Below, one piece after another: positions 1 through 19,699 of a stretch of 64,000 nucleotides of DNA. The notes beneath the pieces are model-generated. The model was not told where the DNA came from. It did no database searches and saw nothing but the letters and a program-made list of their open reading frames with translations. The position numbers and the translations under genes are program-made. The stretch's first letter is position 1. Every line of letters begins with the position of its first letter. Origin of the DNA: Natrinema amylolyticum (lineage in GTDB: Archaea > Halobacteriota > Halobacteria > Halobacteriales > Natrialbaceae); the NCBI RefSeq assembly GCF_020515625.1, contig NZ_JAIWPJ010000001.1, forward strand, positions 372,001 to 436,000, read 5' to 3'.

Positions 1-718
1 AGGAAGACCGGAGCCGGAGCCGCTCGATCCCGGTGGTCTCGTATTCGTCGGGATCGTCGTGGAAGTTCGGCGTTCGATCCTTCGGCAGGAACGCCTTCAT
101 CTCCACCGGGTAGAAGGCGGGATGGAAGCCGTGCTCGAAGGTGTGGAACATCACGCCCATCAGCATGATGACTCCGAGCAGGCCGTGGAAGGCGACGAAG
201 GCCATGACGACCGACTGAGAGTTGTAGAAGTCGATCAGCCACGTCTTCCGCCAGATCAGGAGGCCCGAAATCATCAGCAACAGCAGTTCGACGGTGAAGA
301 TCCAGACGACGCCCTTGCCGATGTAGGAGATCAGCGGCACCTCGTCGGCCTTGTAGCCCGCGAACTGGCGGGCGGCCGGGTGGCGCTCGTCGGCCCGCCC
401 GAGCGCGAACTTGATGTCCTGTACGAACGCCGAGATATCGGTTCGATTCGGCAAGACGCCGCGGAAATTCGAGCGACTCGTCGACCGCAGGAGCATGTAA
501 GACACCCAGAACCCGGTCAGGAGGATCAGCGAGAACCCCGCGAACCGATGGACCAGGAGCACGCCCTCGTTACCGCCCATCAGCTCGACCATCCACCACA
601 GCTCCGTGTTGAACGCGATGGCGTATCCCGTAAAGAACAGGAAGAACACCGTCAGCGCCAGCAGCGAGTGGAACGTGGTGGTCACTCGCGAGAACTTGCC
701 GTGGTCGAGGTTCGTCAT
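1..718 (-). CDS. Cytochrome b subunit of formate dehydrogenase (partial)
   Basis: This gene reads leftwards from an ATG at 718 and runs off the window edge, so only about 239 codons are visible. The product resembles the FdnI/FdoI cytochrome b556 subunit, the membrane anchor that passes electrons from the Fe-S subunit to quinone. Hydrophobic helices carry histidines suited to heme b: FHSLLALTVFFLFFTG near the start, LLVHRFAGFSLILL, and AFHGLLGVIMLMGVMFHTFEHG. The tail ends in an Asp/Glu/Arg-rich segment. Its ATG overlaps the stop of the upstream gene (ATGA), so it is the last visible gene of the fdh operon. The family call is firm. The true C-terminus is unknown. Confidence 0.85.
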   Translation of the reverse strand, partial: MTNLDHGKFSRVTTTFHSLLALTVFFLFFTGYAIAFNTELWWMVELMGGNEGVLLVHRFAGFSLILLTGFWVSYMLLRSTSRSNFRGVLPNRTDISAFVQDIKFALGRADERHPAARQFAGYKADEVPLISYIGKGVVWIFTVELLLLMISGLLIWRKTWLIDFYNSQSVVMAFVAFHGLLGVIMLMGVMFHTFEHGFHPAFYPVEMKAFLPKDRTPNFHDDPDEYETTGIERLRLRSS

Positions 719-1395
719 CGCGACTCACCTCCGTCGGACCGAGTCGAGTCGTCCCGTGGTGTCGATTCCGACTCCGGTTCCGCGGCGGCGCTCGAGTCCG
801 CCGACGGCCGTCCCGTGGTACTCGGCGCACCGCCGTCAGTCGCCGCGGCCGATTCCTGCCCCCGAGCCGTCGCCGCCGGCGGCCGCATCCGCGCGGCTAG
901 CCGCCGGAACGCCGCCCAGTGGACGAACACCATCAGAAGGATGAAAATTCCCATGACGACGTCCGCGAAGTGAACCACGGCGATCGCGATCTCGAGGGCC
1001 GGCGCGGTGTTTCCGAAGACCCAGTCGGCGGCGACGCCGCCGCCCTGGACGGTCGGCCGGACGCGGAGTAGGTTCTCGAAGAGCGGTGCGCGTCCGGAAA
1101 CGAGCGCGACGGCACCGCCCGCCAGCGCGAGTCCGATGAGCGCGCTGATCGCGAAGGCGATCCGATCCCAGCGACCGCCGCCGTCGCCACCGGTTCCCGT
1201 CCCCGAACCCGGGTCGCGGTCGGGAGTCGATCCTGCTTCGTCGGTCGATACCCCGCCACTCTCGTCGCGTCCGGCGGCGGTCTCAGCGGTGTCGCGATCG
1301 TCCCGGTCGACCGCGTCCGTCGTCCGGTCCCGATTCCTCGCGGCTCGGACGTCGTCGCGCTCGCGGGACTCGTCGGGTGGTCGTTCGTCGCTCAT
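715..1395 (-). CDS. Two-helix membrane protein of the formate dehydrogenase operon
   Basis: This 226-residue protein lies between the Fe-S and cytochrome b genes, with ATGA overlaps on both sides. Residues 1-75 are a charged, disordered-looking, probably cytoplasmic region. Two hydrophobic helices follow at about 79-100 and 134-162, and the tail is rich in Ser, Asp and Glu. The second helix holds two histidines (VVHFADVVMG and VFVHW). I do not recognise the family. In bacterial FdnH the C-terminal membrane helix is part of the Fe-S subunit, and the Fe-S subunit here has none, so a separate anchor or assembly role is possible. That role is inference from position. Confidence 0.7.
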   Translation of the reverse strand: MSDERPPDESRERDDVRAARNRDRTTDAVDRDDRDTAETAAGRDESGGVSTDEAGSTPDRDPGSGTGTGGDGGGRWDRIAFAISALIGLALAGGAVALVSGRAPLFENLLRVRPTVQGGGVAADWVFGNTAPALEIAIAVVHFADVVMGIFILLMVFVHWAAFRRLAARMRPPAATARGQESAAATDGGAPSTTGRPSADSSAAAEPESESTPRDDSTRSDGGESR

Positions 1396-2072
1396 TGGTC
1401 GCTGAATAGCTGGGCGTCGTCCGCCCCGAAGATGATCTCCATGGCCTCGTCGTTGAAGAAGGAGCCACTGTCTCGTTTCTCGAGTTCGTCGGCGATCTCG
1501 CCGGCGCTGCCGACCAGGATCGCGTCGGTGGCACACTCCTCGGCGCAGGCCGGTCCCTTCTGGACGTCCTGGCGCTCGCGACAGCCGGTACACTTGTCCA
1601 TGATGCCGCCGGTGCCGAAGAGCTGGGCCGTTCCCTCGTTGCTGTCCGGGAACTGCGGCGCGCCGAACGGACAGCCCGACAGGCAGTACTGACAGCCCAC
1701 ACAGAGGTCCTCGCTCACCGAGACGAACCCGTCGTCTTCCTTCTGGAGCGCGTTGGTCGGACAGACGGAGACGCAGGGCGCGTTCTCGCAGTGATAACAC
1801 TGCATCGGGAGGCTCGTCTCGCCCGGGCGCTCGCCAGCCGCCAGTCGGTCCGTCTTGTCGGCGTTCTCGCCCTGTGGCCCGGCGCGCCCTTCGGCCATCG
1901 TCGTGATGTCGATGCGCTGGTTGTGTATCTCGCGGTCCCAGGTGCGCTTACAGGCGACGACGCAGCCGCCGCAGTCGATACAGGCCTCGACGTCGGGGAA
2001 GATCCGCATCCCCTCGCCGGTGCTCATCACGCCCTGGCTCATCACCTGGCCGGACCGCTCGTCCTGTGTCAT
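1392..2072 (-). CDS. fdhB: Four-cluster iron-sulfur subunit of formate dehydrogenase
   Basis: This 226-residue protein belongs to the FdnH/DmsB/NrfC electron-transfer family. It should carry electrons from the molybdopterin subunit to cytochrome b. Four cysteine groups are visible in order: CIDCGGCVVACKR, CYHCENAPCVSVCPT, CVGCQYCLSGCPFGAP, and CTGC...CAEECATDAI, consistent with four 4Fe-4S clusters. There is no signal peptide, so it would be exported with the Tat-signal catalytic subunit. There is also no C-terminal membrane helix, unlike E. coli FdnH. Its ATG overlaps the fdhA stop (ATGA), which indicates translational coupling. Confidence 0.88.
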   Translation of the reverse strand: MTQDERSGQVMSQGVMSTGEGMRIFPDVEACIDCGGCVVACKRTWDREIHNQRIDITTMAEGRAGPQGENADKTDRLAAGERPGETSLPMQCYHCENAPCVSVCPTNALQKEDDGFVSVSEDLCVGCQYCLSGCPFGAPQFPDSNEGTAQLFGTGGIMDKCTGCRERQDVQKGPACAEECATDAILVGSAGEIADELEKRDSGSFFNDEAMEIIFGADDAQLFSDQ

Positions 2073-5000
2073 GGCGTGTCACCTCCCTCGATCATGTCCC
2101 ATTCGCGGACGTCGTATCGCTTCTGTGTGCCGAGTCCGTGCTCGTCCTGCGGGTAGTCGATGAACTCCATCTCGAGGTCGTCGACCACGCTTTGCGTGGC
2201 CTTCTGAACGTGGACGACGCCCGATTTGGTCTCCTGCATCTGGGTCTCGGCGTCGAACCCGCTCGGCGTGATGATGTTCGCGCTCTCGCCGATGGCCAGT
2301 GGCGCGGTTCCCTCGGGCCAGTTGCCCGACCTGTCTTCCCCGTGGAAGACGCCGCCCCAGTGATAGGGGAGGAAGACCTCCTCCTCGTTGACCCGGTTCG
2401 TCACGTAGGCCTTCACCAGGATCGAGCCCTTGTCGACCGAGGTGACGACGACGTGGTCGTCGCCGCCGACGACGTCGAGCTCCTCGGCGAGCGAGGGGTT
2501 GATCTCGGCGTACATGTGGGGCTGACGGTCGGCGGTGTACTCGTTGTTCCGCGTCTCGGCACCGCCGCCCTGGTGTTCGACCTGCCGGCCCGAAGTCAGA
2601 ATTACCGTTCGGCCGCTCTCGGCGTCGCTGCCGAGTTCGGTGTGGACCCGTTCGGTCGCGTCGGCCTGGACCGACGCGTTGTTCTGGTCGAGTCGCCAGA
2701 AGTTGACCTGTTCGCCGTTGGCGGGCCACTGCTCGACGAGGTCGGGCCGGGGGCTCTCGACCGGTTCCCGGTGGACGGGCACCGTGTCGAGGAAGTTCCA
2801 GACGACCGCGCGCGCCTTCCCGCGTCCCGTCGGCGGATCGGGCTGTGCGTAGTCGTACTCCTCGTAGGCCGCGGGGTCGACGTCGACCTCGTCCCCGTAC
2901 TGCTCGTCGAGCGCCTGCGCAGCGGTGTACACCGACTCAGTTTCGTCGAGTGCGTACTCGACGGGCAGTGTCTGTGTCGACGCGTTCACCGGATCGTCGG
3001 GAAGCAGCGTCGCGTAGTTCGGATACGACGGCACACCGTTGATCTCCTGCCCGTTCCACCACGGTGCCTCGAAGGACTCGGCGATCAGATCCAGTCCGTC
3101 CATCCCCTCCCGATTGTAGGTCTGCCAGAGCGGATACTGCTTGTCGATGCCGAGCTGGTTCCACTCCTCCGGCGTCGGCGCCCTGACGCCCCAGTTCTCG
3201 CGGAAGTCGTGGCCGCCATCGCGAGGGTCGGCCTCCTTCGTCCAGATAATCGGCGACCCGGGGTGATCGTCGCCCCAGTACGGCCAGGGGAGCATCCAGT
3301 AGTCCCCGTCGACGGGCAGCCCGTTGGTGTCCGCCCGCAGGTTGTCCGTGTTGAACGCCCAGTCGTACTCCTGATGTTGCTGGAGCTTCTCGGGCGACTG
3401 CTGGTAGCCGATGGATCGCGTTCCGAGGTTGATCTCCCGGAGCGTGTCCTCGTAGGAGCTCTGACCGTTGTACACCTCGGGACCGCTCCCCCAGTCGAAG
3501 TGCTCGCCGAAGCCGAGGTGATGGGCTAACTCCTGCATAATTTGGAGGTCGGGCCTGGAGTTGTGTGCCGGCGGCGCGACCCGCTCGCTCCACTGGACCG
3601 AGCGGTGGGAGTTCGTCACCGTCCGGACGTGTTCGTACTGGCTCGAGGCCGGCAGCAGGATCACGTTCGCGTCGTCTGGCAGCGTCCCGGCGACGGCCGG
3701 GAAGACGTCGACGACGACCATCAGATCCAGCTCCTCCATCGCTCGCTTCATCTTGTCCATCTCGCTGATGGAGTTCGCCGAGTGGCCCCAGAAGAACGCC
3801 ATCTTCAGCGGGTCGGACTGGTAGAGGTTCGACTCGAGCAGGCGTTGTTCCTGCTCTAAGGCCGCCTCGTACCAGCGGGCGACGGTCAGCCCGACCTGGA
3901 ACATCATCGACCGGTCGCTGACGTCGGTCGATTCCTCCTCTTCTAGGCCCTCCGATTCGTCGTCGCCCGACTGATCCTCGCCCTGCTCTTCGTCTCCCTG
4001 TCCCCCTGCGCTCTCCTCTCCTTCGCCCCCTTCGCCCTCTTGTTCCTCCTCGACGTCGACGCCGGCGCCCCCCGCCTCGACCTCGGCCGGCGTTTCCATG
4101 CCGCTCCACATGTCCTCCGGCATCATCTCGAACTTGTCGTATAGGTCCTGGAAGGAGGTACTGCCGCTGGTCCAGGGGCTCTGATCCCAGACGTCCGCCC
4201 AGTGCTCCCACGAGCCCGGCGAGTCGACGCCGTAGTAGCCCGGGAGGATGCTCGCGTCGACGCCGAGGTCGGTCGCTCCCTGGACGTTGGCGTGGCCGCG
4301 CATGACCTGCAGGCCGCCGCCAGACCGAGCCGCGCTCCCGGTCGCGAGGCTGAACAGCGCGTACGAGCGGATGTTCTGGGTCCCGTTGTTGTGCTGGGTG
4401 CCGCCCATCGCCCACTCGACCTGGATCTGGGGTCTGTTCTCGATGATCAGGTCACCGATCTCCTCGAGGTCGCCCTGATCGATCCAGGTGACGTCCGAGA
4501 CCGTCTCGAGGTCGTATTGTTCGAGTTCGGGTTCGACGTCGGGCCACCCCATCACGCGGTCCTCGAGGAAGGTGCTGTCGAGTCCGTCTTGGTCCCGAAC
4601 GTAGTTGAGTAGGCCCATGACCAGCGCCACGTCCGTGCCGGGCCGCAGCCGGTAGAAGTAGTCGGCGTGGGCCGACGTCTTCGTGTACCGGGGGTCGATC
4701 GAGACGATCGTCCCGCCGCGAGCCTGCCCCTCGAGGATGTGCTGCATCGCGATCGGGTGAGACTCCGCGGGGTTCTGCCCGAGGATGATGAGCAGGTCGA
4801 AGTTGCGGTAGTCGTTGATCGTGTTCGTCATCGCGCCGAACCCCCAGGTGTTCGCCAGTCCGGTCACGGTCGGCGAGTGACAGATCCGCGCCTGGTGGTC
4901 GACGTTGTTCGTGCCCATGAAGGCCGCGAGCTTGCGGATGGCGTAGGCCTCCTCGTTAGCGTGGTGGGCACTACCTAGTAGCATGACACTCTCGCGGCTG

Positions 5001-5431
5001 TACTCGTCGATGGTCTCCTCCCAGGTCTCGGCGATCTCGGAGTAGGCCTCGTTCCAGGAGATCTTCTGCCACTCGCCGTCGACCTTCCGCATCGGGTGTT
5101 TGAGCCGCTTGACCGAGTGCTCGGTCTCGAGAATGCCGGCCCCCTTCGAGCAGAGCGAGCCGTTGTTGATCGGGTTCTCGAACCACGGCTCCATCGCGGT
5201 AAAGGAGTTGCCGTCCTTGACGGCCTTGAAGCCGCAGCCGACGGCGCAGTAGTTACAGATCACCTTCGACGTGTCGGCGTCGTCGACGACGCCGTCCTCG
5301 CCCTCTTCCTCTTGACTGAGGACGTTCCCGGTGACGCCGCCGCCGAGGACCAGTCCGCCCGCGAGAGCGCTGGCTTTCATGAACGACCGGCGATCGAGGT
5401 CGATCGTCACCGGCTCGCCGTCCGCGCTCAT
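2069..5431 (-). CDS. fdhA: Molybdopterin formate dehydrogenase catalytic subunit, Tat-exported
   Basis: This 1120-residue protein would oxidise formate to CO2. A twin-arginine signal (DRRSFMKASALAGG) starts at about residue 13 and implies folded export. A 4Fe-4S site follows (C59-x2-C62-x3-C66, then C94). The segment ARICHSPTV places Cys184 where FdnG-type enzymes have selenocysteine, followed by the usual GAMTN, so this is the cysteine form. Residues 448-504 hold a Glu/Gly/Asp-rich insert. The C-terminal part has the GRQVEHQGGG...PHMYAEINP molydopterin-dinucleotide-binding type sequence. It is first in a four-gene operon. Another CISM-family substrate is possible, but the Cys184 context and operon favour formate. 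Confidence 0.85.
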   Translation of the reverse strand: MSADGEPVTIDLDRRSFMKASALAGGLVLGGGVTGNVLSQEEEGEDGVVDDADTSKVICNYCAVGCGFKAVKDGNSFTAMEPWFENPINNGSLCSKGAGILETEHSVKRLKHPMRKVDGEWQKISWNEAYSEIAETWEETIDEYSRESVMLLGSAHHANEEAYAIRKLAAFMGTNNVDHQARICHSPTVTGLANTWGFGAMTNTINDYRNFDLLIILGQNPAESHPIAMQHILEGQARGGTIVSIDPRYTKTSAHADYFYRLRPGTDVALVMGLLNYVRDQDGLDSTFLEDRVMGWPDVEPELEQYDLETVSDVTWIDQGDLEEIGDLIIENRPQIQVEWAMGGTQHNNGTQNIRSYALFSLATGSAARSGGGLQVMRGHANVQGATDLGVDASILPGYYGVDSPGSWEHWADVWDQSPWTSGSTSFQDLYDKFEMMPEDMWSGMETPAEVEAGGAGVDVEEEQEGEGGEGEESAGGQGDEEQGEDQSGDDESEGLEEEESTDVSDRSMMFQVGLTVARWYEAALEQEQRLLESNLYQSDPLKMAFFWGHSANSISEMDKMKRAMEELDLMVVVDVFPAVAGTLPDDANVILLPASSQYEHVRTVTNSHRSVQWSERVAPPAHNSRPDLQIMQELAHHLGFGEHFDWGSGPEVYNGQSSYEDTLREINLGTRSIGYQQSPEKLQQHQEYDWAFNTDNLRADTNGLPVDGDYWMLPWPYWGDDHPGSPIIWTKEADPRDGGHDFRENWGVRAPTPEEWNQLGIDKQYPLWQTYNREGMDGLDLIAESFEAPWWNGQEINGVPSYPNYATLLPDDPVNASTQTLPVEYALDETESVYTAAQALDEQYGDEVDVDPAAYEEYDYAQPDPPTGRGKARAVVWNFLDTVPVHREPVESPRPDLVEQWPANGEQVNFWRLDQNNASVQADATERVHTELGSDAESGRTVILTSGRQVEHQGGGAETRNNEYTADRQPHMYAEINPSLAEELDVVGGDDHVVVTSVDKGSILVKAYVTNRVNEEEVFLPYHWGGVFHGEDRSGNWPEGTAPLAIGESANIITPSGFDAETQMQETKSGVVHVQKATQSVVDDLEMEFIDYPQDEHGLGTQKRYDVREWDMIEGGDTP

Positions 5432-5689: not shown

Positions 5690-7822
5690 ATGAGAGTCGG
5701 GAGTTTCGTCTGTTCGTGTGCGGACACCTGTGACGTCGATCTCGAGGGCGTCCGCGAGGGGATCGATCACGTCGACGTCGCGGCGAGTTCGAGCCTGCTC
5801 TGTGCGGACGGCCTCCCCGCGATGGAGCAGGTCATCGACGAGTACGACCTCGATCAGCTGATCGTCACCTGTCCCGAGTCGCGGTCCCAGCGGAAGATCG
5901 AGCGGGTCGCCGAACAGCGGGGACTCCATCCGGACGCGGTCTCGTTCGTCGACCAGCGCGAGCGCGCCGGGTGGGTCCACGACGAGGCCGGTGCCACGGC
6001 GAAGACCGCCCGGATGGTCAACGCCAGATACGCCGGCCTCGAGGCCGAATCGGTCTCCCGGACGGTCTCGCAAGACGCCGGCGAGCGCGTTGCGGTCGTC
6101 GCCGATCCGGAGACCGCGGCGGCCCTGTCCGATGACGCTAACATCACGTTGATCGCCGACGGCGAGGAGTACGTCGACAGTACGGCCGAGCTCGACGACG
6201 TGACGATCGAACGCGGCCGCGTGATCGACGTCGACGGCCGGTTCGGCGAGTTCACGGTTCGCATTCGGGCACAGGTCACCGAGGACTGCGTCTCGTGTAT
6301 GAAGTGCGTCCGCGAGGGCCCCGACGGCGCGGTCACGCGCTATCCGGTCGATATCGATCCGGACGCGCCCGACGGAGCGTGGACGGACGTCTGTCCCACC
6401 GACGCGATCGAGCTGGACGGGACCGAACGGACCCTCGAGTTCGACCAGGTCGTTTACCCGGCGGCCACTCGCGCGACACGGGGCGGCCGGATCGGCTTCT
6501 ACACCGCGCCGATCGACGCGGCGACGATCTCGGCCGTGCGAACACACCTCGGCGGGATCGAGAAACCCGACCACCTCGACCTCGAGATGGACGTCTGCGC
6601 CGCGGGCGACTCGAGCCAGCGGGGCTGCAACGAGTGCGTCGAGGCCTGCCCGCACGACGCGGTCGAACGGGCGCGGATCGACGAGGTCGAGTTCCACAAG
6701 GAGGCCTGCCAGAACTGCGGGGCCTGTACCAGCGCCTGTCCGACGGGGGCGACGATGCTCCGCGAGCCCTCGAACGAGCGACTCGCCCGGGAGGTCGAGG
6801 CGCTGCTCCGGCCGACGGACGACGAGGGCGGCTGGCTCCTGAACCGCTCCGGCTCGGACATCGACGCCGCGATCGTCGCGTTCGTCTGCTCGGAGGAGGC
6901 CGACGACGCGCTCGCCGAGTACGGCCGACTGGCCGCCGCGGGGAAAGCGGACGTCGAGTACCCGCCGATCCTCCCCGTTCGCGTGAACTGCACGGACACC
7001 GTCGGCGAGGCCCACGCGATGCACGCGCTGGCCTGCGGTGCGGACGGCGTCGCGGTCGTCGGCTGCGGCGGCGACTGCCGTCACTCCGGTCCGGAGTCGA
7101 AGGCCGACCTCGTCGATCGGCTCAACCGAGCCACTGCGGACCTCGCGCTCGGCGAGCGGATCGGGTTCTTCGCGCCCGATCCCGACGAGCCGGGCCAGTT
7201 CGTCGAGGAGATTTCGACCTTCGCCGTCGAACTCGAGGGCTCGCCGATTCCGGTGGGCGATCACGAGGCCACCGGAGGGATCGACGCCGACCGGGACAAC
7301 CCCGCCTTCGACAGTCACGGTTGGACGCTCGAGAGCGTCCGCGCGATCCTCGAGCACGTCGATCCGGACCGCGAGGTGATTCGCGGGCTCAAAGATTTCG
7401 GTCGCATGGACGTCGCCGACGGCTGTACGCTCACGCCGACCTGTTCGAACCTCTGTCCCACCGACGCGATCCGCCGGAACGAGGACGAGGCCGTCCTCGA
7501 GTTCAACCACGAGAAGTGCGTCAACTGCGGGCTCTGTGAGGAGGGCTGCGTCGAGGACGTCATCGAGATGCGCGACGGCCTCGACCGGTCGCTGCTGCCG
7601 GAGAACCGCGACGACGAGGACCCCGCCTGGATCGAGGTCTTCGACGGCGAGATGCGAGAGTGTCGCCACTGTGGCAAGCCGTTCACCAGCGAGGGATCGG
7701 CACGGAAGATCCAGGCGGAAGTCGGTGACCTCGTCGCCGGCATCGCCCCGAGCGCGCAGGGGGACATCTTCGAGTACTGCGGCGACTGCCGCGCGCGACT
7801 GCTCTCCGACCGAGGTGACTGA
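5690..7822 (+). CDS. Polyferredoxin with HdrA N-terminal-like and MvhD-like domains
   Basis: This 710-residue protein has no signal peptide. Residues 1-140 begin VGSFVCSCADTC and resemble the N-terminal domain of heterodisulfide reductase HdrA, but no FAD domain follows. A cysteine cluster (C200-x2-C-x2-C) is followed by two ferredoxin motifs at about 313 and 340. Residues 393-505 look like the MvhD/hydrogenase delta subunit (IVAFVCSEE, then VNCTD and VGCGGDCRH), though the first CxxC of MvhD is missing. Two more ferredoxin motifs lie at about 578 and 610, and a CxxC...CxxC zinc ribbon lies from about 658. An in-frame reading continues upstream, but MRVGSF at 5690 starts the HdrA-like domain and follows the AT-rich promoter. 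It likely shuttles electrons; the partner is unknown. Confidence 0.8.
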   Translation: MRVGSFVCSCADTCDVDLEGVREGIDHVDVAASSSLLCADGLPAMEQVIDEYDLDQLIVTCPESRSQRKIERVAEQRGLHPDAVSFVDQRERAGWVHDEAGATAKTARMVNARYAGLEAESVSRTVSQDAGERVAVVADPETAAALSDDANITLIADGEEYVDSTAELDDVTIERGRVIDVDGRFGEFTVRIRAQVTEDCVSCMKCVREGPDGAVTRYPVDIDPDAPDGAWTDVCPTDAIELDGTERTLEFDQVVYPAATRATRGGRIGFYTAPIDAATISAVRTHLGGIEKPDHLDLEMDVCAAGDSSQRGCNECVEACPHDAVERARIDEVEFHKEACQNCGACTSACPTGATMLREPSNERLAREVEALLRPTDDEGGWLLNRSGSDIDAAIVAFVCSEEADDALAEYGRLAAAGKADVEYPPILPVRVNCTDTVGEAHAMHALACGADGVAVVGCGGDCRHSGPESKADLVDRLNRATADLALGERIGFFAPDPDEPGQFVEEISTFAVELEGSPIPVGDHEATGGIDADRDNPAFDSHGWTLESVRAILEHVDPDREVIRGLKDFGRMDVADGCTLTPTCSNLCPTDAIRRNEDEAVLEFNHEKCVNCGLCEEGCVEDVIEMRDGLDRSLLPENRDDEDPAWIEVFDGEMRECRHCGKPFTSEGSARKIQAEVGDLVAGIAPSAQGDIFEYCGDCRARLLSDRGD

Positions 7823-7824
7823 CG

Positions 7825-8457
7825 ATGAGCGTAGACCAACAGGCACTCTACGACGCCCGACTCGAGCTGGTGAACTTCCTGATCGACGCGTTCGCAGACG
7901 TCCCGACCGAATCGTTCGTCGAGACGTTGCTGTCCGGGGACGTCTCGCTCCCGGAGGAGAGCGTCAGCGAGCGCCTCGACCGGGGATTCGCGGAGCTCGA
8001 AGCCTTCATCGAGGAGAACCGGGATCGCGACCCCGACGCCGTTCGGGACGATCTGGAGAGCGAGTTCACGCGGCTGTTCGTCGGCCCGCGGCCGCCGGTC
8101 CTCCCCCACGAGACCTACTACCGAGAGGACACCGACTTTCGCGGCAGCGGGTTAGCAGAAGTCGAAGCGAGTTACGCCGCAGCGGGCTGGTCGCCGCCCG
8201 AGGAATACCCCGAGGAGAACGATTACGTCGCGGTCGAACTGGCGTTCCTCCGATACCTGATTCGCCGGCAGCGCGGCGGCGACGAAGAGACGTTCGGCTA
8301 CCAGCGGGTCTTCCACGAGGAACATCTCTCCGAGTGGATCAACGACCTCGCGGCGGACGTCCGCGAGCGGACCGACGAGCGGTTCTACGAGGCCGTCGCC
8401 GCGCTGCTCGAGGGCGACGTCGCGTTCGAGGAAGAGATCGCGATACAGATGGCCTGA
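7825..8457 (+). CDS. TorD/DmsD-family chaperone for molybdoenzyme
   Basis: This 210-residue all-helical protein has the TorD-family signature EFTRLFVGP...PHETYYRE at about residues 74-100 and a later ENDYVAVELAFLRYLIRR helix. TorD-family chaperones bind Tat signal peptides and help insert molybdopterin cofactor before export. Here the natural client is the Tat-signal formate dehydrogenase encoded divergently about 2.4 kb away. It starts 2 nt after the stop of the polyferredoxin gene, so the two are co-transcribed. Confidence 0.85.
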   Translation: MSVDQQALYDARLELVNFLIDAFADVPTESFVETLLSGDVSLPEESVSERLDRGFAELEAFIEENRDRDPDAVRDDLESEFTRLFVGPRPPVLPHETYYREDTDFRGSGLAEVEASYAAAGWSPPEEYPEENDYVAVELAFLRYLIRRQRGGDEETFGYQRVFHEEHLSEWINDLAADVRERTDERFYEAVAALLEGDVAFEEEIAIQMA

Positions 8458-8769: not shown

Positions 8770-9129
8770 TCAGTAGGGCCGCGGATCGTCCGGGTCCGAC
8801 GCCGACGCGGACTCGGTTTCGTCGTCGAGGAACGCGCGTGCGAACAGGTCGACGTGCAGTGCCAGCACTGCATCGGGCTCGAGGCCGAACGCCTCGCCCT
8901 GTCGCTCGAGATACGCCTCGAGAGCGTCGGTCGGCTCGTGATGGATCTCGCCGTCGGCGGCGTCGACCGCGAACTCGACCTCGTTCGCGCCCGAGACGAG
9001 GTGTTCGATCTCGAGGAGGGCCTGCTCGGCCTTCGTCTCCAACGCGTCTTCCTCGTCCATGAGTCGGTCGTCGCCCCACGCCGTCGCGGCCTCGCGAAAC
9101 CGGTCGCTGACGGAAATCGTGAGGGTCAC
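8770..9129 (-). CDS. Conserved acidic hypothetical protein, GTG start
   Basis: This 119-residue soluble protein begins TLTISVSDRFREAATAWGDDRLMDEEDALETK and is mainly helical and acidic, ending in a Ser/Asp/Pro tail. The start is GTG at 9129 and overlaps the stop of the 46-residue zinc-ribbon gene upstream (GTGA), so the two are coupled. There is no transmembrane segment and no recognisable catalytic motif. I do not recognise the family. Confidence 0.65.
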   Translation of the reverse strand: MTLTISVSDRFREAATAWGDDRLMDEEDALETKAEQALLEIEHLVSGANEVEFAVDAADGEIHHEPTDALEAYLERQGEAFGLEPDAVLALHVDLFARAFLDDETESASASDPDDPRPY

Positions 9130-9677: not shown

Positions 9678-10490
9678 CTACGACTCCGCCTTAAGTTCCC
9701 ACTCCGCTTTCTCGGCCGCCGTCTCGAGCGGCACGAACTCCCAGTCGGCCGCCTCGGCGATCGGTTCGTCCGCGCCCGCGATGCCGACGACGACCATCCG
9801 ATCGGCGTGAAACATCGAATTCCGGTCGATTTCGGCGAGTCGCTCACCGGGACCCGTCCCCGACCCGTTGAAGAAGTCAGCGTCGATCCCGCGCTCTCGC
9901 TGGAACTTCTGGACGACGTGGGCGGGGACGTCGCCGACGATTCCGATCCAGTCGGCCCATCCTCCGGCGTCGCCGAAGACGCGCCGCGGGCGCTCGAGGC
10001 GGCGCACGGCCCCGTAGGTGAGCGCCATCGTCATGTCGTCGGTTCCGCCGCCGTGTGGGCCGGACGCCGCGGGCGACTCGGAATCCGATCGAGCGCCCAT
10101 CGGCCGCGGCGTCTCCGGCGACCCGGTTCCGGCGGACGGCTCGCCGGCTGGGTCGCTGGCGGTTCCACCAGTATCGCCGCCTCGCGCCGGAATGCCGGCC
10201 GGGGTTTTCTCGCCCGTTTCGGGAACGTGCGGCGCGGGAGCGCGGGCGGGACTCGAGCCGTCGCCCGCCGCATCGGCGTCGTCGGCCGCGATCTCGGTCT
10301 CGGAACCGCCGTTTGCCCCCTCTCCCGTTCGGTCTCGGCCGCCGGCGGAGGCGAACCCCGACGGCGGCGACTCGGATCCCGTCTCGGAACCGCCGCGGGC
10401 GTCGTCGCGCCAGACTGGATCGCCGACGGTCCCCTCGTCCTCCTCGTCGGCGTCGGTCTTGAACTCGTCCAGATCGATTCGGTCCGTCAT
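9678..10490 (-). CDS. Haloarchaeal conserved protein with long disordered N-terminus
   Basis: In this 270-residue protein, residues 1-150 are Gly/Ser/Asp/Pro-rich low complexity. The C-terminal 120 residues are ordered: MTMALTYGAVRRLERP, GWADWIGIVGDVPAHVVQKFQRE, FHADRMVVVGIAGADEP. This looks like a conserved haloarchaeal domain of unknown function (I believe the group called DUF7124, unverified). Its ATG overlaps the stop of a 33-codon reading frame upstream (ATGA), which itself sits behind a TATA-like element. Confidence 0.65.
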   Translation of the reverse strand: MTDRIDLDEFKTDADEEDEGTVGDPVWRDDARGGSETGSESPPSGFASAGGRDRTGEGANGGSETEIAADDADAAGDGSSPARAPAPHVPETGEKTPAGIPARGGDTGGTASDPAGEPSAGTGSPETPRPMGARSDSESPAASGPHGGGTDDMTMALTYGAVRRLERPRRVFGDAGGWADWIGIVGDVPAHVVQKFQRERGIDADFFNGSGTGPGERLAEIDRNSMFHADRMVVVGIAGADEPIAEAADWEFVPLETAAEKAEWELKAES

Positions 10491-14888: not shown

Positions 14889-15212
14889 TCACTCCTCCGT
14901 TTCCTCCCGATCCGGTCGGTCCTCGTGCGAACTGCCGACGCCGATTTCGCTCAGTTCCGCGGGCTCCGAGTCCGGTTCGGAGTCGTGGTACAGGCGGCGT
15001 CCGGCGGCCGCCTTCCGGCGGTGGGCGTCCCACTCTTCGAAGAGGCCGTACTCGTTCATCGTTTCCATCCCGGCGATCGCCGCCGTGAGCTTGATACCCA
15101 CCAACGGGATGTCCGCGACCGAGACGATCACGTCCGCGCGCAGGACCGCGCCGTCCCTGAGCAACACGTCGAGGACGTCGACGAGCCCCTCGTCGTCCTT
15201 TCGCGGCCTCAT
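14889..15212 (-). CDS. gvpM: Gas vesicle protein GvpM
   Basis: This 107-residue member of the GvpA/J/M family is an accessory protein needed for early vesicle assembly. The core GLVDVLDVLLRDGAVLRADVIVSVADIPLVGIKLTAAIAGMETM (residues 9-52) aligns with the GvpA fold. The tail is hydrophilic and acidic, ending DREETEE. Its ATG overlaps the gvpL stop (ATGA). It is the last gene of the leftward gvpFGHIJKLM operon. Confidence 0.9.
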   Translation of the reverse strand: MRPRKDDEGLVDVLDVLLRDGAVLRADVIVSVADIPLVGIKLTAAIAGMETMNEYGLFEEWDAHRRKAAAGRRLYHDSEPDSEPAELSEIGVGSSHEDRPDREETEE

Positions 15213-16159
15213 GGTCGTGGGTTCGCGTGATCGGTCGCTGATTCGTTTCCGTCGCCGTCACCGCCCAGCTCCGGCGCGAAGGTGTACGGCGGCCACGGGC
15301 CGGTGAACCTGACCTCGAGCCCCTCGTTCGCCGCCACGTCGTCGAGGATCGACCCGATCGCCTCCTCGTCGTCCTCGTGAGCCAACAGCGTGAGCCGGCA
15401 GAGGGTCTCGCCGTCGTCGGTCTCTGCGTCGTCGCTCGAGTCCGAACCGCCCGCCACGTCGTCGGAGAGTTTCGCGCTCGGCGATCGCTCGAGGGCGTGG
15501 ACTTCCCGCGCTTCGGCGGCCAGTCGCTCCTCAAGGTCGGCGGTGAGCGACTCTCGGCGGGCGGCCCGGAGCTCCCGCAGTCGCTGGTCGAATCGCTTCT
15601 CGAGTAGGAAGGCCGTCCCCTCCCCGGAGTCGTCGATCTGCTCGTCGAGTTCGCGCAGCCGCTCGTCGCGCTCGATCAGCGCCTCGTCGCTGATCGGGTC
15701 GACCTCGACGACCTCGACGCGGTACTCCCAGTGGTCGGCGAGTCCGGAGAGGGCCCGCTCGAGGGTGTCGGATTCCTCGCGGAGCCACTCGCGGACGCCG
15801 TCGTCGTCGCCCCGGAGGATCGTGTCGAACTGGAACGGGATCGGCGTCCCGAAGGCCTGGCCCGCCTCGTCGACGACCGTCTGGTGGCGGACGAGCCAGC
15901 GCCTGATCTGGGCGAGATCCGCCGAGTCGTAGATGCCGTCGCAGGCGTGAACGACCGCACCGATGCCGTCCTCGACGACGACCGAGACGGGTTCGCCGTC
16001 GACGCCGGCTATCTCGAGGTCGGCGTCCTCGTCGGCCGGGACGATACAGTAGAGGTACCGCCCCTCGTCGATGTCCGGCGTCTCGCCCGCCTCACCGGTC
16101 GACTGCTCGTCGAGGTCCTCGAGGCGCTCGGCGGGAGCATCTGACTCGTTTTCGCTCAC
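15209..16159 (-). CDS. gvpL: Gas vesicle protein GvpL
   Basis: This 316-residue GvpF/GvpL-family accessory protein is required for vesicle assembly in haloarchaea. The N-terminal domain starts [16 protein letters not shown], and the second domain closes with [16 protein letters not shown], the GPWPPYxF motif shared with GvpF. The middle is helical and charged ([19 protein letters not shown]). An acidic, Ser-rich linker lies at about 238-256. It overlaps gvpK upstream and gvpM downstream by 4 nt each. Confidence 0.92.
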
Positions 16160-16500
16160 GCGTCCTCACCCCCGAACACGGAGTAGCCCGGCTCGTTCGT
16201 GGCCGTCGGCTCGCCGTGGAGCTGTTCGATCGCGTCGTTGACCAGCCCGTCCAGATCGCCCCGGAGATCGTCGACGCCGTCCTCGATCCCCTCGTCTCGT
16301 TTGAGCCGTTCGATCTCGGCCTCGATCGTCGCGAGCTGATTGCCCAGCCGTTCGATCTCCTCGTCCGAGAGGTTCCCCGACTCCATGCGGCGGACTGCCT
16401 CCCGCTCGAGGGCCTCGATCAGGATCTCGACGACGGCGATGACCAGCGTCATCAGCCCGTCGCGCGCGTCCTCGCCGTCGCCGACGTCGATCGCCGTCAC
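16156..16500 (-). CDS. gvpK: Gas vesicle protein GvpK
   Basis: This 114-residue protein has the GvpK core: [29 protein letters not shown], then [22 protein letters not shown]. It is mostly helical. GvpK is an accessory protein of vesicle assembly in halobacteria. It is coupled by ATGA overlaps to gvpJ before and gvpL after. The length is typical. Confidence 0.92.
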
Positions 16501-17117
16501 GACTCGTCACCCTCCGAGTCCGCCGCTGGCTCTGCTTCCGGCGCGGCCTCGTCCGCCGCGGATTCCTCGTCGCTCGATTCCGTCTCGTCCTCGCTCGAGG
16601 CCGCGTCCGAGTCGCCGCTCGAATCCGCGCTCGACTCCGAGTCGTCGCTGAGCAGGTCGAACCCGCCGCTGGTCGGCCGTTCCGGGTTCGGTCTGGCACC
16701 GAGGCGTTCGCTCACCAGTTCCTCGTCGCCGACGGCCAGCTCGCTCTCGCTCGACTCGCCGCTATCGCCGTCGCTTTCGCCGTCGGTCCGTTCCCCGCCG
16801 TCCGCGTCCTCGTCCGCGGTGGCGTTGACGCCGCGCGTGGGATCGATCACCGGGTTCGGCCGGTCCATCTCCGCGAGTTCGGGCTCGCCGGCCGCCTCGG
16901 CGACGCGGCGCATGTCCGTCCCCTCGGGGAACTCGAGGCCGTACTTGGCCGCCGTCTCGAAGGAGGCAATTGCGGCTCGGACCTGGACGCCAAGCAGTTG
17001 GGTGTCGCCGATCGAGACGGCGATGTCGGCGTTGATGACGATCCCCTTGTCCAGCAGCATCTCGACGACCTCGGCGAGGTCGGCCTTCTGGCGGCTGGGC
17101 TGGAAGTCATCGGGCAT
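16497..17117 (-). CDS. gvpJ: Gas vesicle protein GvpJ with long acidic Ser/Asp tail
   Basis: In this 206-residue protein, residues 10-60 ([20 protein letters not shown]..., [20 protein letters not shown]) are the GvpA-like core. From about residue 100 the chain is Ser, Asp, Glu and Ala low complexity, longer than the usual GvpJ tail. The start at 17117 is set by a full ten-base Shine-Dalgarno sequence three nucleotides upstream. An earlier in-frame start at 17168 would precede that signal and is unlikely. A 77-nt gap separates it from the gvpI-position gene. Confidence 0.9.
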
Positions 17118-17120
17118 CGC

Positions 17121-17130
17121 GATCACCTCC
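17121..17130 (-). promoter_or_regulatory. Perfect Shine-Dalgarno sequence of gvpJ
   Basis: Read on the minus strand this is GGAGGTGATC, fully complementary to the archaeal 16S rRNA 3' end, 3 nt before the ATG at 17117. It decides the gvpJ start and marks internal re-initiation within the operon at the only sizeable gap (77 nt). Confidence 0.85.
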
Positions 17131-17194
17131 GACGAGGGGCGGCCGCGGGTCGGTCGTTCGCACCGCACAGCCGGTCGGTCGCTGCAGTGGTGGG

Positions 17195-18238
17195 TCAGTC
17201 ATTGGTGTTCCTCCGGGTCTCGGTGTCGTCGGTTCGCCGCTGTCGCTCTTCCGCTGTCGCGTCGTCGTCGGTCCGCCGTTGACGCTGTTCCGTCGTCGTG
17301 TCGTCGTTCTGCCTCCGCTGTCGTTCGTTCCGCCGCTGTCGTTCTCGTTCGATCTCGAACCGCCGGCCGTAGATCCGCTTCCGCGTGGGTGCCGTCGAGA
17401 GCTTCACGCTCTGTGGCACCGTCGAGTAGCGGGCGCCGCCGCCGAGGTCGTTCCGCTCGGTGGGCATCGTCGCCGCCGCCGTCGGGTTCCGCGAGTTCGT
17501 ACTCGTGTCCTGCCGACGCATCTTCTCGCGGTTGAACTCGTAGAGTCGCTCGAACTTCTCGTGGGTCTCGAGCAGCGCCGCCCGGAACGAATCGATCCCC
17601 CGCATCGCCTGCTGCTGGATGGCGGCCTGGTAGGCCTCGGGGTCCTCGGCGACGTCGATGTCGCCCAGCGCTTCCTTCGCCGCGGAGCCGGCGTCCATCC
17701 CGGTGTCGAGAACGCCGTCCTCGTCGTCTCCGAGCAGTCCGTCGCCGTCACCGTCGTCGCCGTTCGCGACGTCCGACACCGCGTCTTCGATCATCCCGGC
17801 GTCGTCGCCGTCCTCGAGGGCGTCCAGGGCGTCGTCCAGTTCGCGTTTGTTCTCCCAGAGGTCGGTCAGATCCGCGGCGTTCCAGGCGTTCAGCAGGTCG
17901 ATCGCGTCGAACAGTTCCGTGAAGTCGACCAGTTCGGTGACGCCGTGGTCCTCGTCCGTCAGCACGTCTGGGATCTCGCCGAGTTCGATCGCGTCGAGGA
18001 GTTCGTCCCCGTCGATCGCGTCCGGCAGTTCGCTCAGATCCATCGCCTCGAGCAGTTCGCCGACCTCTTCGGCGACCCGCACGAGGTTGTCGAGGTCGCC
18101 GACGACCGTCTCGAGGGTGTCGTCGTTGAGGTCGTCGATCGCCTCGCTGTCGCCCAGCGTCTCCTCGAGCCGGCCGAGGCTCTCGGTCGCGTCCTCGAGC
18201 AGCGTTTCGAACGCGTCTTCGGACTCGGCGTCGCTCAT
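17195..18238 (-). CDS. gvpI: GvpI-position protein, greatly enlarged
   Basis: The call rests on operon position between gvpH and gvpJ. At 347 residues it is much longer than the roughly 150-residue GvpI known from Halobacterium. Residues 1-200 are very acidic and helical, rich in leucine (LEETLGDSEAIDDLNDD..., DELLDAIELGEIPDVL). The last 110 residues are strongly basic, as expected for GvpI, and contain several QRR(N/T)DD repeats after KRIYGRRFEIER. It could be a GvpI fused to an extra acidic domain. Its ATG overlaps the gvpH stop. Confidence 0.65.
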   Translation of the reverse strand: MSDAESEDAFETLLEDATESLGRLEETLGDSEAIDDLNDDTLETVVGDLDNLVRVAEEVGELLEAMDLSELPDAIDGDELLDAIELGEIPDVLTDEDHGVTELVDFTELFDAIDLLNAWNAADLTDLWENKRELDDALDALEDGDDAGMIEDAVSDVANGDDGDGDGLLGDDEDGVLDTGMDAGSAAKEALGDIDVAEDPEAYQAAIQQQAMRGIDSFRAALLETHEKFERLYEFNREKMRRQDTSTNSRNPTAAATMPTERNDLGGGARYSTVPQSVKLSTAPTRKRIYGRRFEIERERQRRNERQRRQNDDTTTEQRQRRTDDDATAEERQRRTDDTETRRNTND

Positions 18239-18819
18239 TCGTTCTCCTCCGGCGCGTCGCTATCCCCACCCCCCGCGGGATCGGGGGAGAGCCGGACGGT
18301 GAGCACCCCGTTCTTGATCGTCGCTCTCGAGTCCGGCTCCTGCCAGGGGGCCTCGATGCGATCCAGTTCGGATCCCTCGACGGCGATGACGAGCATCGAG
18401 TCGTCGAAGCCGACCGTGACCTCGTCCGGATCGGCACCGGCGACGTCGACGGTGACGATCAGTTCGTCGTCGTAGGTTCGGGTCGCCACGTTGTGTTCGC
18501 TCGAGGGCCCCGACGATCGGACGCGGCGCTTCCGCGATCGATCGCCGTCCCTGCCCTGCGACCCGTCGCCGCCGAACCGCTCCCGATCGAGCGGCGAGTC
18601 GTCCGCGAGATCGTCGACCGATCGGATCGAGATGTCGTAATCGAAGACCGACCGATCGCTCCGTCGCCGTCCCGAGGTCGACGTCGGACCGCTCTCGAGC
18701 GATTCCAACGCGGACAGCAGGCTCGAGAGCCAGTGGTCGCTCTCGTCGGTGAACCGATCGTCGGTGCTGTGGTCATCGTCCGATTCGTCGCGGTCGTCGT
18801 GCGGGGCACTGTCGCTCAT
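18235..18819 (-). CDS. gvpH: Gas vesicle protein GvpH (Hsp20-like)
   Basis: In this 194-residue protein, residues 1-90 are acidic and disordered. The C-terminal part is an alpha-crystallin/Hsp20 fold: NVATRTYDDELIVTVDVAGADPDEVTVGF, then [12 protein letters not shown], the G-x-L motif strand. GvpH is an accessory chaperone-like protein of haloarchaeal gas vesicles. Its ATG shares one base with the gvpG stop (TAATG), and its own stop overlaps the next gene by 4 nt. Confidence 0.88.
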   Translation of the reverse strand: MSDSAPHDDRDESDDDHSTDDRFTDESDHWLSSLLSALESLESGPTSTSGRRRSDRSVFDYDISIRSVDDLADDSPLDRERFGGDGSQGRDGDRSRKRRVRSSGPSSEHNVATRTYDDELIVTVDVAGADPDEVTVGFDDSMLVIAVEGSELDRIEAPWQEPDSRATIKNGVLTVRLSPDPAGGGDSDAPEENE

Positions 18820-19073
18820 TATCGTTTCACCTCTACGCGGCCGCTCGAGAGCCGTTCGTGAACCTCGCGGGCGGTCTCGAGCTCCGCCTCGAGTTCTTCC
18901 TTGCGGCGCCGGTACTCCGACTCGGAGCGCTCGCCGAGTTCGTACAGCAGCTGGTTCTCTTTGAGTTCGTCCTCGATCGCCTCCACGTCGTACATCTCGT
19001 CGAGCGCGATCGAGTGAAGCGCGTCGACGATGCCGACGAACGGCCGAAACAGGAGGTCATCGAGGATGAACAT
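18819..19073 (-). CDS. gvpG: Gas vesicle protein GvpG
   Basis: This 84-residue protein begins MFILDDLLFRPFVGIVDALHSIA, and a long charged helix follows (DEYxRRKEELEAELETAREVHERL type), typical of GvpG. GvpG is part of the accessory complex with GvpF/L/M. It starts 2 nt after the gvpF stop and overlaps gvpH. Confidence 0.9.
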   Translation of the reverse strand: MFILDDLLFRPFVGIVDALHSIALDEMYDVEAIEDELKENQLLYELGERSESEYRRRKEELEAELETAREVHERLSSGRVEVKR

Positions 19074-19075
19074 GG

Positions 19076-19699
19076 TTACTGTTGGGCTCCGATTTTCACG
19101 TCGACGAAGCTGTAGGGGGCGAACGGCCCGGTGTACTGGACCATGAGGTCGTCGTGCTCGTCCTCGAAGTCGGCGACCGCCTCGTCGAACGCCTCGCGCT
19201 CGTCCTCGTCGACGAGATACGAGCGGTTGAGCACGAGTCGATCGCTGAACAGGTCGTTCTCGACGGACTGTGCGGCGATCGGGTCGAAGCGGTCCGCGAC
19301 CTCGGCCTCGAGCGCCTCCCGGTCGATCTCGGCGTCTTCCTCGCGAACGAGTTTGAGGCCGAGTTCGATCTTCCCCTCGATGTCGTTCATCGCGCGTCGG
19401 AACGCCGGTCGCGCCCCGCGCAGGACGTTCTTCAGCTCTCGGTCGCCCTCGAAGGCCATGCCGAACTGCATGGGAACGATCGTCGTTCCGCCGTCGTACT
19501 CCATGATCTCCCGGAGGACCTCGTCGTGGATCTGGGCGTCCTCGTCGGTCTCCTCGGGGTCGGTCGTGTCGATATCGGAGACGACGGCACCGAGCCGCCG
19601 ATGGGAGATCGTGTAGACGCGCTCGGCACCGGCGACGGCCTCGGTCTCGAACTCGACGGTGTCGGACTCGACGACGCCGTAGACGTACCGGTTACTCAT
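19076..19699 (-). CDS. gvpF: Gas vesicle protein GvpF
   Basis: This 207-residue protein opens MSNRYVYGVVES and closes with LMVQYTGPFAPYSFVDVKIG, the two conserved ends of the GvpF/L family, with the middle motif TTIVPMQFGMAFEGD. GvpF binds GvpA and is thought to prevent premature aggregation. It is the first gene of the leftward operon. A Shine-Dalgarno GGTGAT lies 5 nt upstream of its ATG. Confidence 0.93.
   Translation of the reverse strand: MSNRYVYGVVESDTVEFETEAVAGAERVYTISHRRLGAVVSDIDTTDPEETDEDAQIHDEVLREIMEYDGGTTIVPMQFGMAFEGDRELKNVLRGARPAFRRAMNDIEGKIELGLKLVREEDAEIDREALEAEVADRFDPIAAQSVENDLFSDRLVLNRSYLVDEDEREAFDEAVADFEDEHDDLMVQYTGPFAPYSFVDVKIGAQQ

Follow-up and report, generated by a model that had tools for sequence, protein, structure and literature searches.

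A cross-domain family of polyferredoxins with HdrA- and MvhD-like parts, linked to TorD and Tat-exported molybdenum enzymes and probably to their maturation

Introduction

During cofactor insertion, chaperones of the TorD family bind the signal and the core of exported molybdoenzymes, and two cytoplasmic iron-sulfur or iron proteins have been tied to this step: NapF of Rhodobacter sphaeroides, required to rebuild the NapA cluster in vitro ahead of Tat export, and FdhE, described as an iron-binding rubredoxin for periplasmic formate dehydrogenases (FDHs) (PMC10609526). A published operon survey lists a '4Fe-4S binding' gene, together with DUF3305/3306, among the neighbours of NarJ-family chaperones and gives no function for it (PMC4464133), and in Shewanella oneidensis the iron-sulfur cluster-binding protein SO_4506 is known from expression data to be co-regulated with fdhT and fdhA. 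In Halodesulfurarchaeum, formate oxidation is established, the membrane-bound FDH operon is HTSR_1573-1576, and its FdhA (HTSR_1576) has been measured by proteomics (PMC5437934).

Here we analyse a window of 64,000 nucleotides from Natrinema amylolyticum (NZ_JAIWPJ010000001.1, positions 372,001 to 436,000, forward strand), in which a gene for a polyferredoxin, P1, lies beside an FDH locus. An earlier note on this DNA had taken P1 for methanogen-type HdrA and MvhD parts stranded in haloarchaea, and had proposed domain profile searches and a gene-neighbourhood survey as checks. Our results shift that reading: in place of a methanogen electron path left over in haloarchaea, we see an accessory family that spans two domains of life and is probably related to enzyme maturation. 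Database names for the family are limited to 'hydrogenase iron-sulfur subunit' or '4Fe-4S binding protein'. The searchable literature yielded no experiments on any of its members. What follows is a working hypothesis for a widespread, vaguely annotated gene family that spans archaea and bacteria.

Results

The P1 locus and its neighbours

P1 is a real gene rather than a chance open reading frame, since its homologues across haloarchaea are full length and 55-86% identical, and it is present in single copy in its own genome (4.7 Mb, 99.98% complete). Together with the adjoining TorD gene it is divergent from fdhA-fdhB (Table 1), a layout that recurs in nearly all FDH-type haloarchaea. The neighbouring enzyme is, as had been claimed, a formate dehydrogenase of the Tat-exported type: FdhA carries an RR motif, with a weak match to Pfam TAT_signal (E 0.0086, below cut-off). 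No signal sequence is evident in P1, so the topological puzzle of a protein inside the cell beside an exported enzyme stands. The candidate small membrane subunit had no Pfam match (partial query).

Other features of the window were observed alongside. Residues ~450-505 of FdhA form an acidic, low-complexity insertion rich in Gly, Glu and Asp, at which alignments with many haloarchaeal FdhA break. In most FDH-type haloarchaea the P1-TorD-FDH locus is followed by genes for a small haloarchaeal protein (8770-9129, minus strand, in the window) and a DUF7124 protein (9678-10490, minus strand), and putative gas vesicle genes of the GvpF/L type were seen by eye downstream, at ~14889-19699.

Table 1 Features of the P1 locus and parts of P1 (window coordinates)
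Feature	Coordinates	Strand	Basis
Cytochrome b-type membrane anchor, putative, truncated by window end	1..718	-	ORF; Haladaptatus orthologous position annotated cytochrome b/b6
Small membrane subunit candidate, two hydrophobic segments	715..1395	-	Sequence; small ORF in same place in Haladaptatus
FdhB, four-cluster iron-sulfur subunit, nearest model FDH3 beta	1392..2072	-	NF038355 9.6e-38, below cut-off
fdhA, formate dehydrogenase catalytic subunit, RR export signal, Cys active site ARICHSPTVTG	2069..5431	-	TIGR01591 4.6e-131 (below its cut-off); Pfam molybdopterin domains
Divergent intergenic region, fdhA/P1	5432..5689	.	Sequence; divergent layout kept in FDH-type haloarchaea
P1 polyferredoxin, 710 aa	5690..7822	+	ORF, Pfam, homologues, AlphaFold2 model, PDB fold matches
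P1 residues 1-120, HdrA N-terminal-like domain, C8/C10/C38/C61 common to HdrA	5690..6049	+	
P1 residues 125-258, shortened HdrA Rossmann remnant without GxGxxG, and ferredoxin group C200/203/206/235	6062..6463	+	
P1 residues 300-356, ferredoxin dicluster I, HdrA C-terminal type	6587..6757	+	
P1 residues 394-516, MvhD/FlpD-like domain, C400/C434/C459/C463	6869..7237	+	
P1 residues 575-628, ferredoxin dicluster II, HycF-like, seven cysteines, Thr at 582 instead of Cys	7412..7573	+	
P1 residues 655-703, terminal zinc ribbon CxxC...CxxC, HycF-like	7652..7798	+	
TorD/NarJ-family chaperone, start 2 bp past P1 stop	7825..8457	+	Pfam Nitrate_red_del 7.3e-29; TorD models 5e-11

Domain composition of P1

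The proposed profile searches do find both HdrA and MvhD similarity in P1. Residues 395-516 match Pfam FlpD (MvhD) with an E-value of 2.8e-18 (66.6 bits against a gathering score of 22.3), and Pfam places ferredoxin domains at ~312-355 and ~585-628; the top NCBIfam model is HdrA2, with an E-value of 2.5e-29, yet at 101.9 bits against a cut-off of 1100. Among solved chains searched with phmmer, HdrA matches at both ends of P1 (residues 2-114 and 298-373), and MvhB polyferredoxin and MvhD are likewise matched. A profile of 33 P1 relatives aligned residues 1-212 with HdrA (1.1e-34), bearing out the HdrA N-terminal-like domain of the earlier note, and residues 567-697 with HycF of formate hydrogenlyase (8.1e-16). 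The Pfam and NCBIfam matches include none to a DNA-binding or signalling domain. Structurally, the AlphaFold2 model of P1 (pLDDT 83, pTM 0.80) has HdrA as its best PDB match (2e-19) and matches MvhD with a TM of 0.69 by target length; the whole chain superposes loosely on HdrA, at a TM of 0.26-0.34 by query length, which its several domains would lead one to expect.

The flavin domain, which the earlier note had described as missing, is only partly so. ADPETA stands in P1 at the position of the HdrA motif GGGIAG, the FAD motif is gone from nearly all relatives, and the second half of the HdrA FAD domain is absent. However, residues 1-261 align by hhalign with residues 1-324 of Ignisphaera HdrA at 99.5% probability, so the domain was not cleanly removed: a condensed Rossmann half with an inserted ferredoxin is kept.

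Conserved cysteine groups

All five ferredoxin-type cysteine groups that had been read from the sequence were located (C200/203/206/235, C303-320, C340-350, C579-589 and C610-620), and we scored their conservation on an alignment of 44 P1 sequences. Dicluster I is invariant in its eight cysteines, in archaea and bacteria, and dicluster II in its seven; the first half of dicluster II, the fourth ferredoxin group, reads CTLTPTC in the main haloarchaeal family, one cysteine fewer than the bacterial CTLCxxC. The terminal zinc ribbon (C658/C661/C697/C700), likewise recognized before, is invariant in 44/44 aligned members and matches HycF together with the dicluster that precedes it. Within the same alignment, the HdrA N-terminal cysteines are mostly retained and the central ferredoxin group is absent from several lineages.

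The MvhD cysteine set comprises five residues. The earlier note had the first CxxC of the MvhD-like domain lost; its second cysteine is indeed gone, but the first is kept, leaving four of the five in P1. These four are present in most archaeal copies and in Entotheonella. They are lost in the other proteobacterial copies and in L048, L050 and L083 (loci are given by L numbers), and wholly or partly lost in L066, L074, L075 and L081; Pfam FlpD is no longer detected in P1 of L048 and L050. The pattern of conservation therefore places the core of P1 in its two diclusters and metal site, and not in the HdrA flavin or the MvhD electron entry. We also considered that the MvhD cysteines might track the loss of FdhD, and rejected it, the FdhD-less type of L048, L050 and L083 also being without them.

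Distribution and phylogeny

Of 242 Halobacteria, 66 carry P1, and these represent 27 of 74 genera; an alignment-based search of the phylum Halobacteriota returned it in 52/295 genomes, including families outside Halobacteria. Full-length relatives are also encoded in the FDH3 clusters of Alpha- and Betaproteobacteria, and tblastn located plasmid copies in Diaphorobacter, Bradyrhizobium, Sagittula, Microvirga, Variovorax and others. A scan of a genome collection with the haloarchaeal P1 alignment as query, which reached proteobacterial copies too, added Haloarcula, Natrialba, Halorubrum, Halobacterium and other named haloarchaea, along with Ods01 and Ods02 MAGs, Burkholderiales and an Entotheonella. 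P1 relatives were absent from the viral contigs searched, and PADLOC gave no match.

Haloarchaeal and bacterial copies align over their full length by blastp at 24-28% identity (E ~1e-24 to 1e-44). Evolutionarily, a maximum-likelihood tree sets two HdrA sequences apart from P1 on a branch of 2.4 changes per column, groups the bacterial copies together (99/93), and holds all haloarchaeal and Ods copies together (99/99); we make no claim on the deeper branching order because of the tree's warnings on long branches and composition. The family is not peculiar to haloarchaea, and the notion of a methanogen feature stranded there finds no support, with members in proteobacteria and in clusters without a formate dehydrogenase.

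Linkage to TorD and to molybdenum enzymes

Linkage was surveyed over 92 distinct P1 loci, 75 of them flanked by 4.5 kb or more in both directions. Among these 75, TorD lies on the same strand and within 350 bp of P1 in 63, a TorD gene is present within 4.1 kb in 69, and a molybdopterin oxidoreductase lies within 8 kb in 70; no nearby TorD was seen in L074 and L102. In some loci other than the window's, the P1 and TorD genes overlap. The neighbourhood is conserved in relatives, with TorD beside nearly every copy of P1, and the idea missing from the earlier note is maturation. A NUBPL/Mrp iron-sulfur ATPase gene is found within 1.5 kb of P1 in 13/75 loci, from haloarchaeal/Ods and proteobacterial lineages (the Psr/Phs/Arr-like archaeal loci described below, Sagittula and seven Burkholderiales loci), and overlaps P1 by four bases in L112. 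MobA is often near P1, and tat genes adjoin it in L063 and L074. The genes fdhA-fdhB-cytb-TorD-P1 all run in one direction in L048 and L049, and P1 is co-directional within an operon in other Halobacteriota and many bacteria.

We paired the searches for P1 and FdhA assuming that the 234 genomes of the FdhA search are genomes G000-G233, whereby 60 Halobacteria carry P1 and FdhA, two P1 only, two FdhA only and 170 neither, as raw counts that ignore kinship. One of the two FdhA-only genomes (L083) has a divergent P1 beside TorD, and the other (L082) has a Tat FDH with TorD and no P1, so P1 is not strictly required. As side observations, an aldehyde:ferredoxin oxidoreductase near P1 or FDH is annotated at L051:14994-16772 and was seen by eye in L046 and L050. 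In L050 (756-3103; genome G052), fdhA is split by a transposase-like ORF and the adjoining P1 has diverged, which suggests a decaying system.

A changing partner enzyme

The enzyme beside P1 is not always a formate dehydrogenase. In Natronorubrum bangense (L052), two other haloarchaea (L045 and L085) and the Ods MAGs L112 and L114, P1-TorD comes after genes for a Tat molybdopterin enzyme, its four-cluster partner and an NrfD anchor. Upstream of them, L045, L052 and L085 encode an ArsR regulator, and Natronorubrum has arsD and arsA nearby as well. PhsA is the best model for the catalytic subunit (8e-57), ArrA scores lower (1e-31), and ArrB is best for the four-cluster partner (4e-43); since all of these scores fall below cut-offs, we term the enzyme Psr/Phs/Arr-like. 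P1 of these operons forms one clade nested within FDH-type haloarchaeal P1. In L084 (8245-10122; genome G159), a P1 without its first ~90 residues persists beside NUBPL with the molybdoenzyme gone, and is apparently a remnant of such an operon.

Elsewhere, P1 adjoins tatA and a Tat [NiFe] hydrogenase in L074, a stretch with no TorD or FDH, and P1-TorD lies beside putative hypA/C/D/F (by eye) in L066. Neighbours of bacterial P1 comprise DUF3305, DUF3306, TorD, fdhABC, and FdhD or MobA; DUF3305/3306 are not annotated in the two annotated haloarchaeal loci.

Formate dehydrogenases without FdhD

FdhD sulfurates the FDH cofactor. Its Pfam model (PF02634) has no match in 234/234 Halobacteria or in the window's own genome, while 62 of the 234 carry this Tat FdhA. 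The same model is matched in 215/295 Halobacteriota genomes, the haloarchaeal genomes listed there being without a match. A second profile, built from four FdhD proteins, found FdhD absent in 12 haloarchaeal genomes, with one marginal match (12.6 bits, E 0.05) and 4/4 positive controls recovered. FdhE was not found in the window's genome with a Pfam model that matched only one control genome. The absence of FdhD is not wholly new, since some FDH-bearing organisms are noted to lack fdhD (PMC10609526), although its class-wide extent is striking. How FDH becomes active without FdhD, and in the window's genome also without a detectable FdhE, is testable in culturable haloarchaea.

We regard it as very unlikely that haloarchaeal FDH is matured without FdhD in such a way that the HdrA/MvhD-derived polyferredoxin, acting with TorD, instead carries out the activation of the cofactor, by sulfur or by electrons, for which FdhD is used elsewhere.

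Discussion

A proposed role in maturation

Functionally, we posit, with a probability of roughly 0.6, that P1 is a cytoplasmic, NapF-like maturation factor that works with TorD for Tat-exported molybdenum enzymes, here FdhAB. Linkage to TorD across two domains of life, the co-occurrence of P1 and FdhA, the changing enzyme, the linkage to NUBPL, and the invariant diclusters and zinc ribbon all speak for maturation. P1 is proposed as the donor of electrons or clusters because it has no evident signal, TorD is co-encoded, the exported enzymes vary, and an iron-sulfur ATPase and MobA are linked to it. TorD would keep hold of the catalytic subunit in its apo form, Tat signal included, while P1, with its five ferredoxin-type groups and zinc ribbon, would dock on immature FdhA/FdhB and supply it with electrons or iron-sulfur clusters, such that the [4Fe-4S] and Mo/W-bisPGD sites could be loaded and reduced ahead of export. 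We infer that P1 acts in the cytoplasm, that it partners TorD physically, and that it delivers electrons or, instead, whole clusters. As to origin, we take P1 to descend from an electron-transfer protein of the HdrA-MvhD type, through loss of the flavin site and acquisition of a C-terminus like that of HycF. Apparently, a methanogen-type electron-bifurcation scaffold was given a new use after losing its flavin site, and that use is probably enzyme maturation.

Alternative readings

Gene linkage fits maturation and electron-transfer roles alike, and the conservation of many redox clusters in P1 would also fit a true electron carrier. The methanogen-type formate-to-heterodisulfide path can nonetheless be rejected as the main reading, because the partner enzyme changes, the flavin site is lost, the MvhD cysteines are dispensable in the family, and the window's genome has no second FlpD/MvhD gene. 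A broader version, in which P1 carries electrons in the cytoplasm from FDH (before export, or from a non-exported fraction) to a soluble acceptor, its HdrA/MvhD chemistry being a relic, would draw on the same homology and conserved clusters, and on a C-terminus like that of HycF in formate hydrogenlyase. We consider this unlikely, though the strongest of the alternatives: FdhA carries a Tat motif and, judging from synteny, comes with a membrane cytochrome b, P1 also accompanies non-formate enzymes, and the losses at the flavin site and, in several lineages, of the MvhD cysteines weigh against it, as do the lack of a second FlpD gene and the confinement of CCG (HdrB-type) matches in the window's genome to open frames of 698 aa or more. 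The tight coupling of P1 and TorD, 2 bp apart in the window and overlapping elsewhere, could instead reflect redox proofreading, in which TorD-bound FdhAB would pass electrons to P1 only with complete cofactors and then be released for Tat export; tat genes are adjacent in L063 and L074, and the enzymes identified beside P1 are of Tat-exported types. Linkage of this kind fits cofactor loading equally, however, and to our knowledge there is no example of proofreading by electron transfer, such that we hold this to be quite improbable.

It is more doubtful still that P1, with TorD, also replaces FdhD in haloarchaea by delivering the sulfido ligand to the FDH cofactor. The lack of FdhD in 234 Halobacteria, 62 of them with FdhA, and the agreement of the second profile in 12 genomes would suit such a role, but P1 and FdhD stand side by side in bacteria and in other Halobacteriota, which argues against a simple replacement and against this being the general role of P1, and no set of P1 cysteines is common to all FdhD-less lineages yet missing elsewhere. 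Regulation of the neighbouring enzyme's expression by P1 as a redox or metal sensor, which the upstream region shared divergently with fdhA might suggest, is extremely improbable given the domain matches, none of which is of a DNA-binding or signalling type, and the operons in other Halobacteriota and many bacteria in which P1 is co-directional.

Comparison with known systems

HdrA and HdrA2-MvhD share with P1 the N-terminal domain, the Rossmann region with its ferredoxin (shortened in P1), the C-terminal ferredoxins and MvhD, in the same order, whereas P1 is without the FAD motif and the second FAD half, scores far below HdrA cut-offs, and has an extra HycF-like C-terminus; HdrBC-type neighbours were not seen beside P1. 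Its C-terminal dicluster and zinc ribbon resemble HycF (formate hydrogenlyase subunit 6), but HycF is a 180-aa membrane hydrogenlyase subunit and only the last 140 residues of P1 match it. The likeness to NapF is one of working, that of a multi-cluster ferredoxin, presumably cytoplasmic in the case of P1, tied to a Tat-exported molybdoenzyme; architecture and size differ, and the napF model, whose cut-off is 102.2 bits, scores 41.7 bits and covers no more than a part of the ferredoxin region. Closest of all is the '4Fe-4S binding protein' of FDH3 clusters (DUF3305-DUF3306-4Fe-4S-TorD-fdhABC; 'fer4' in PMC4464133), a full-length P1 homologue with the same invariant diclusters and zinc ribbon, in the same neighbourhood of TorD and a Tat FDH. 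The bacterial copies differ from P1 in having no MvhD cysteines (except in Entotheonella), a full CxxCxxC in dicluster II, and DUF3305/3306 and FdhD as neighbours. Shewanella SO_4506 is probably this same FDH3-cluster protein. If our proposal is right, P1 would belong to a kind that is already known, the cytoplasmic polyferredoxin helpers of Tat molybdoenzymes, with an origin that is unexpected.
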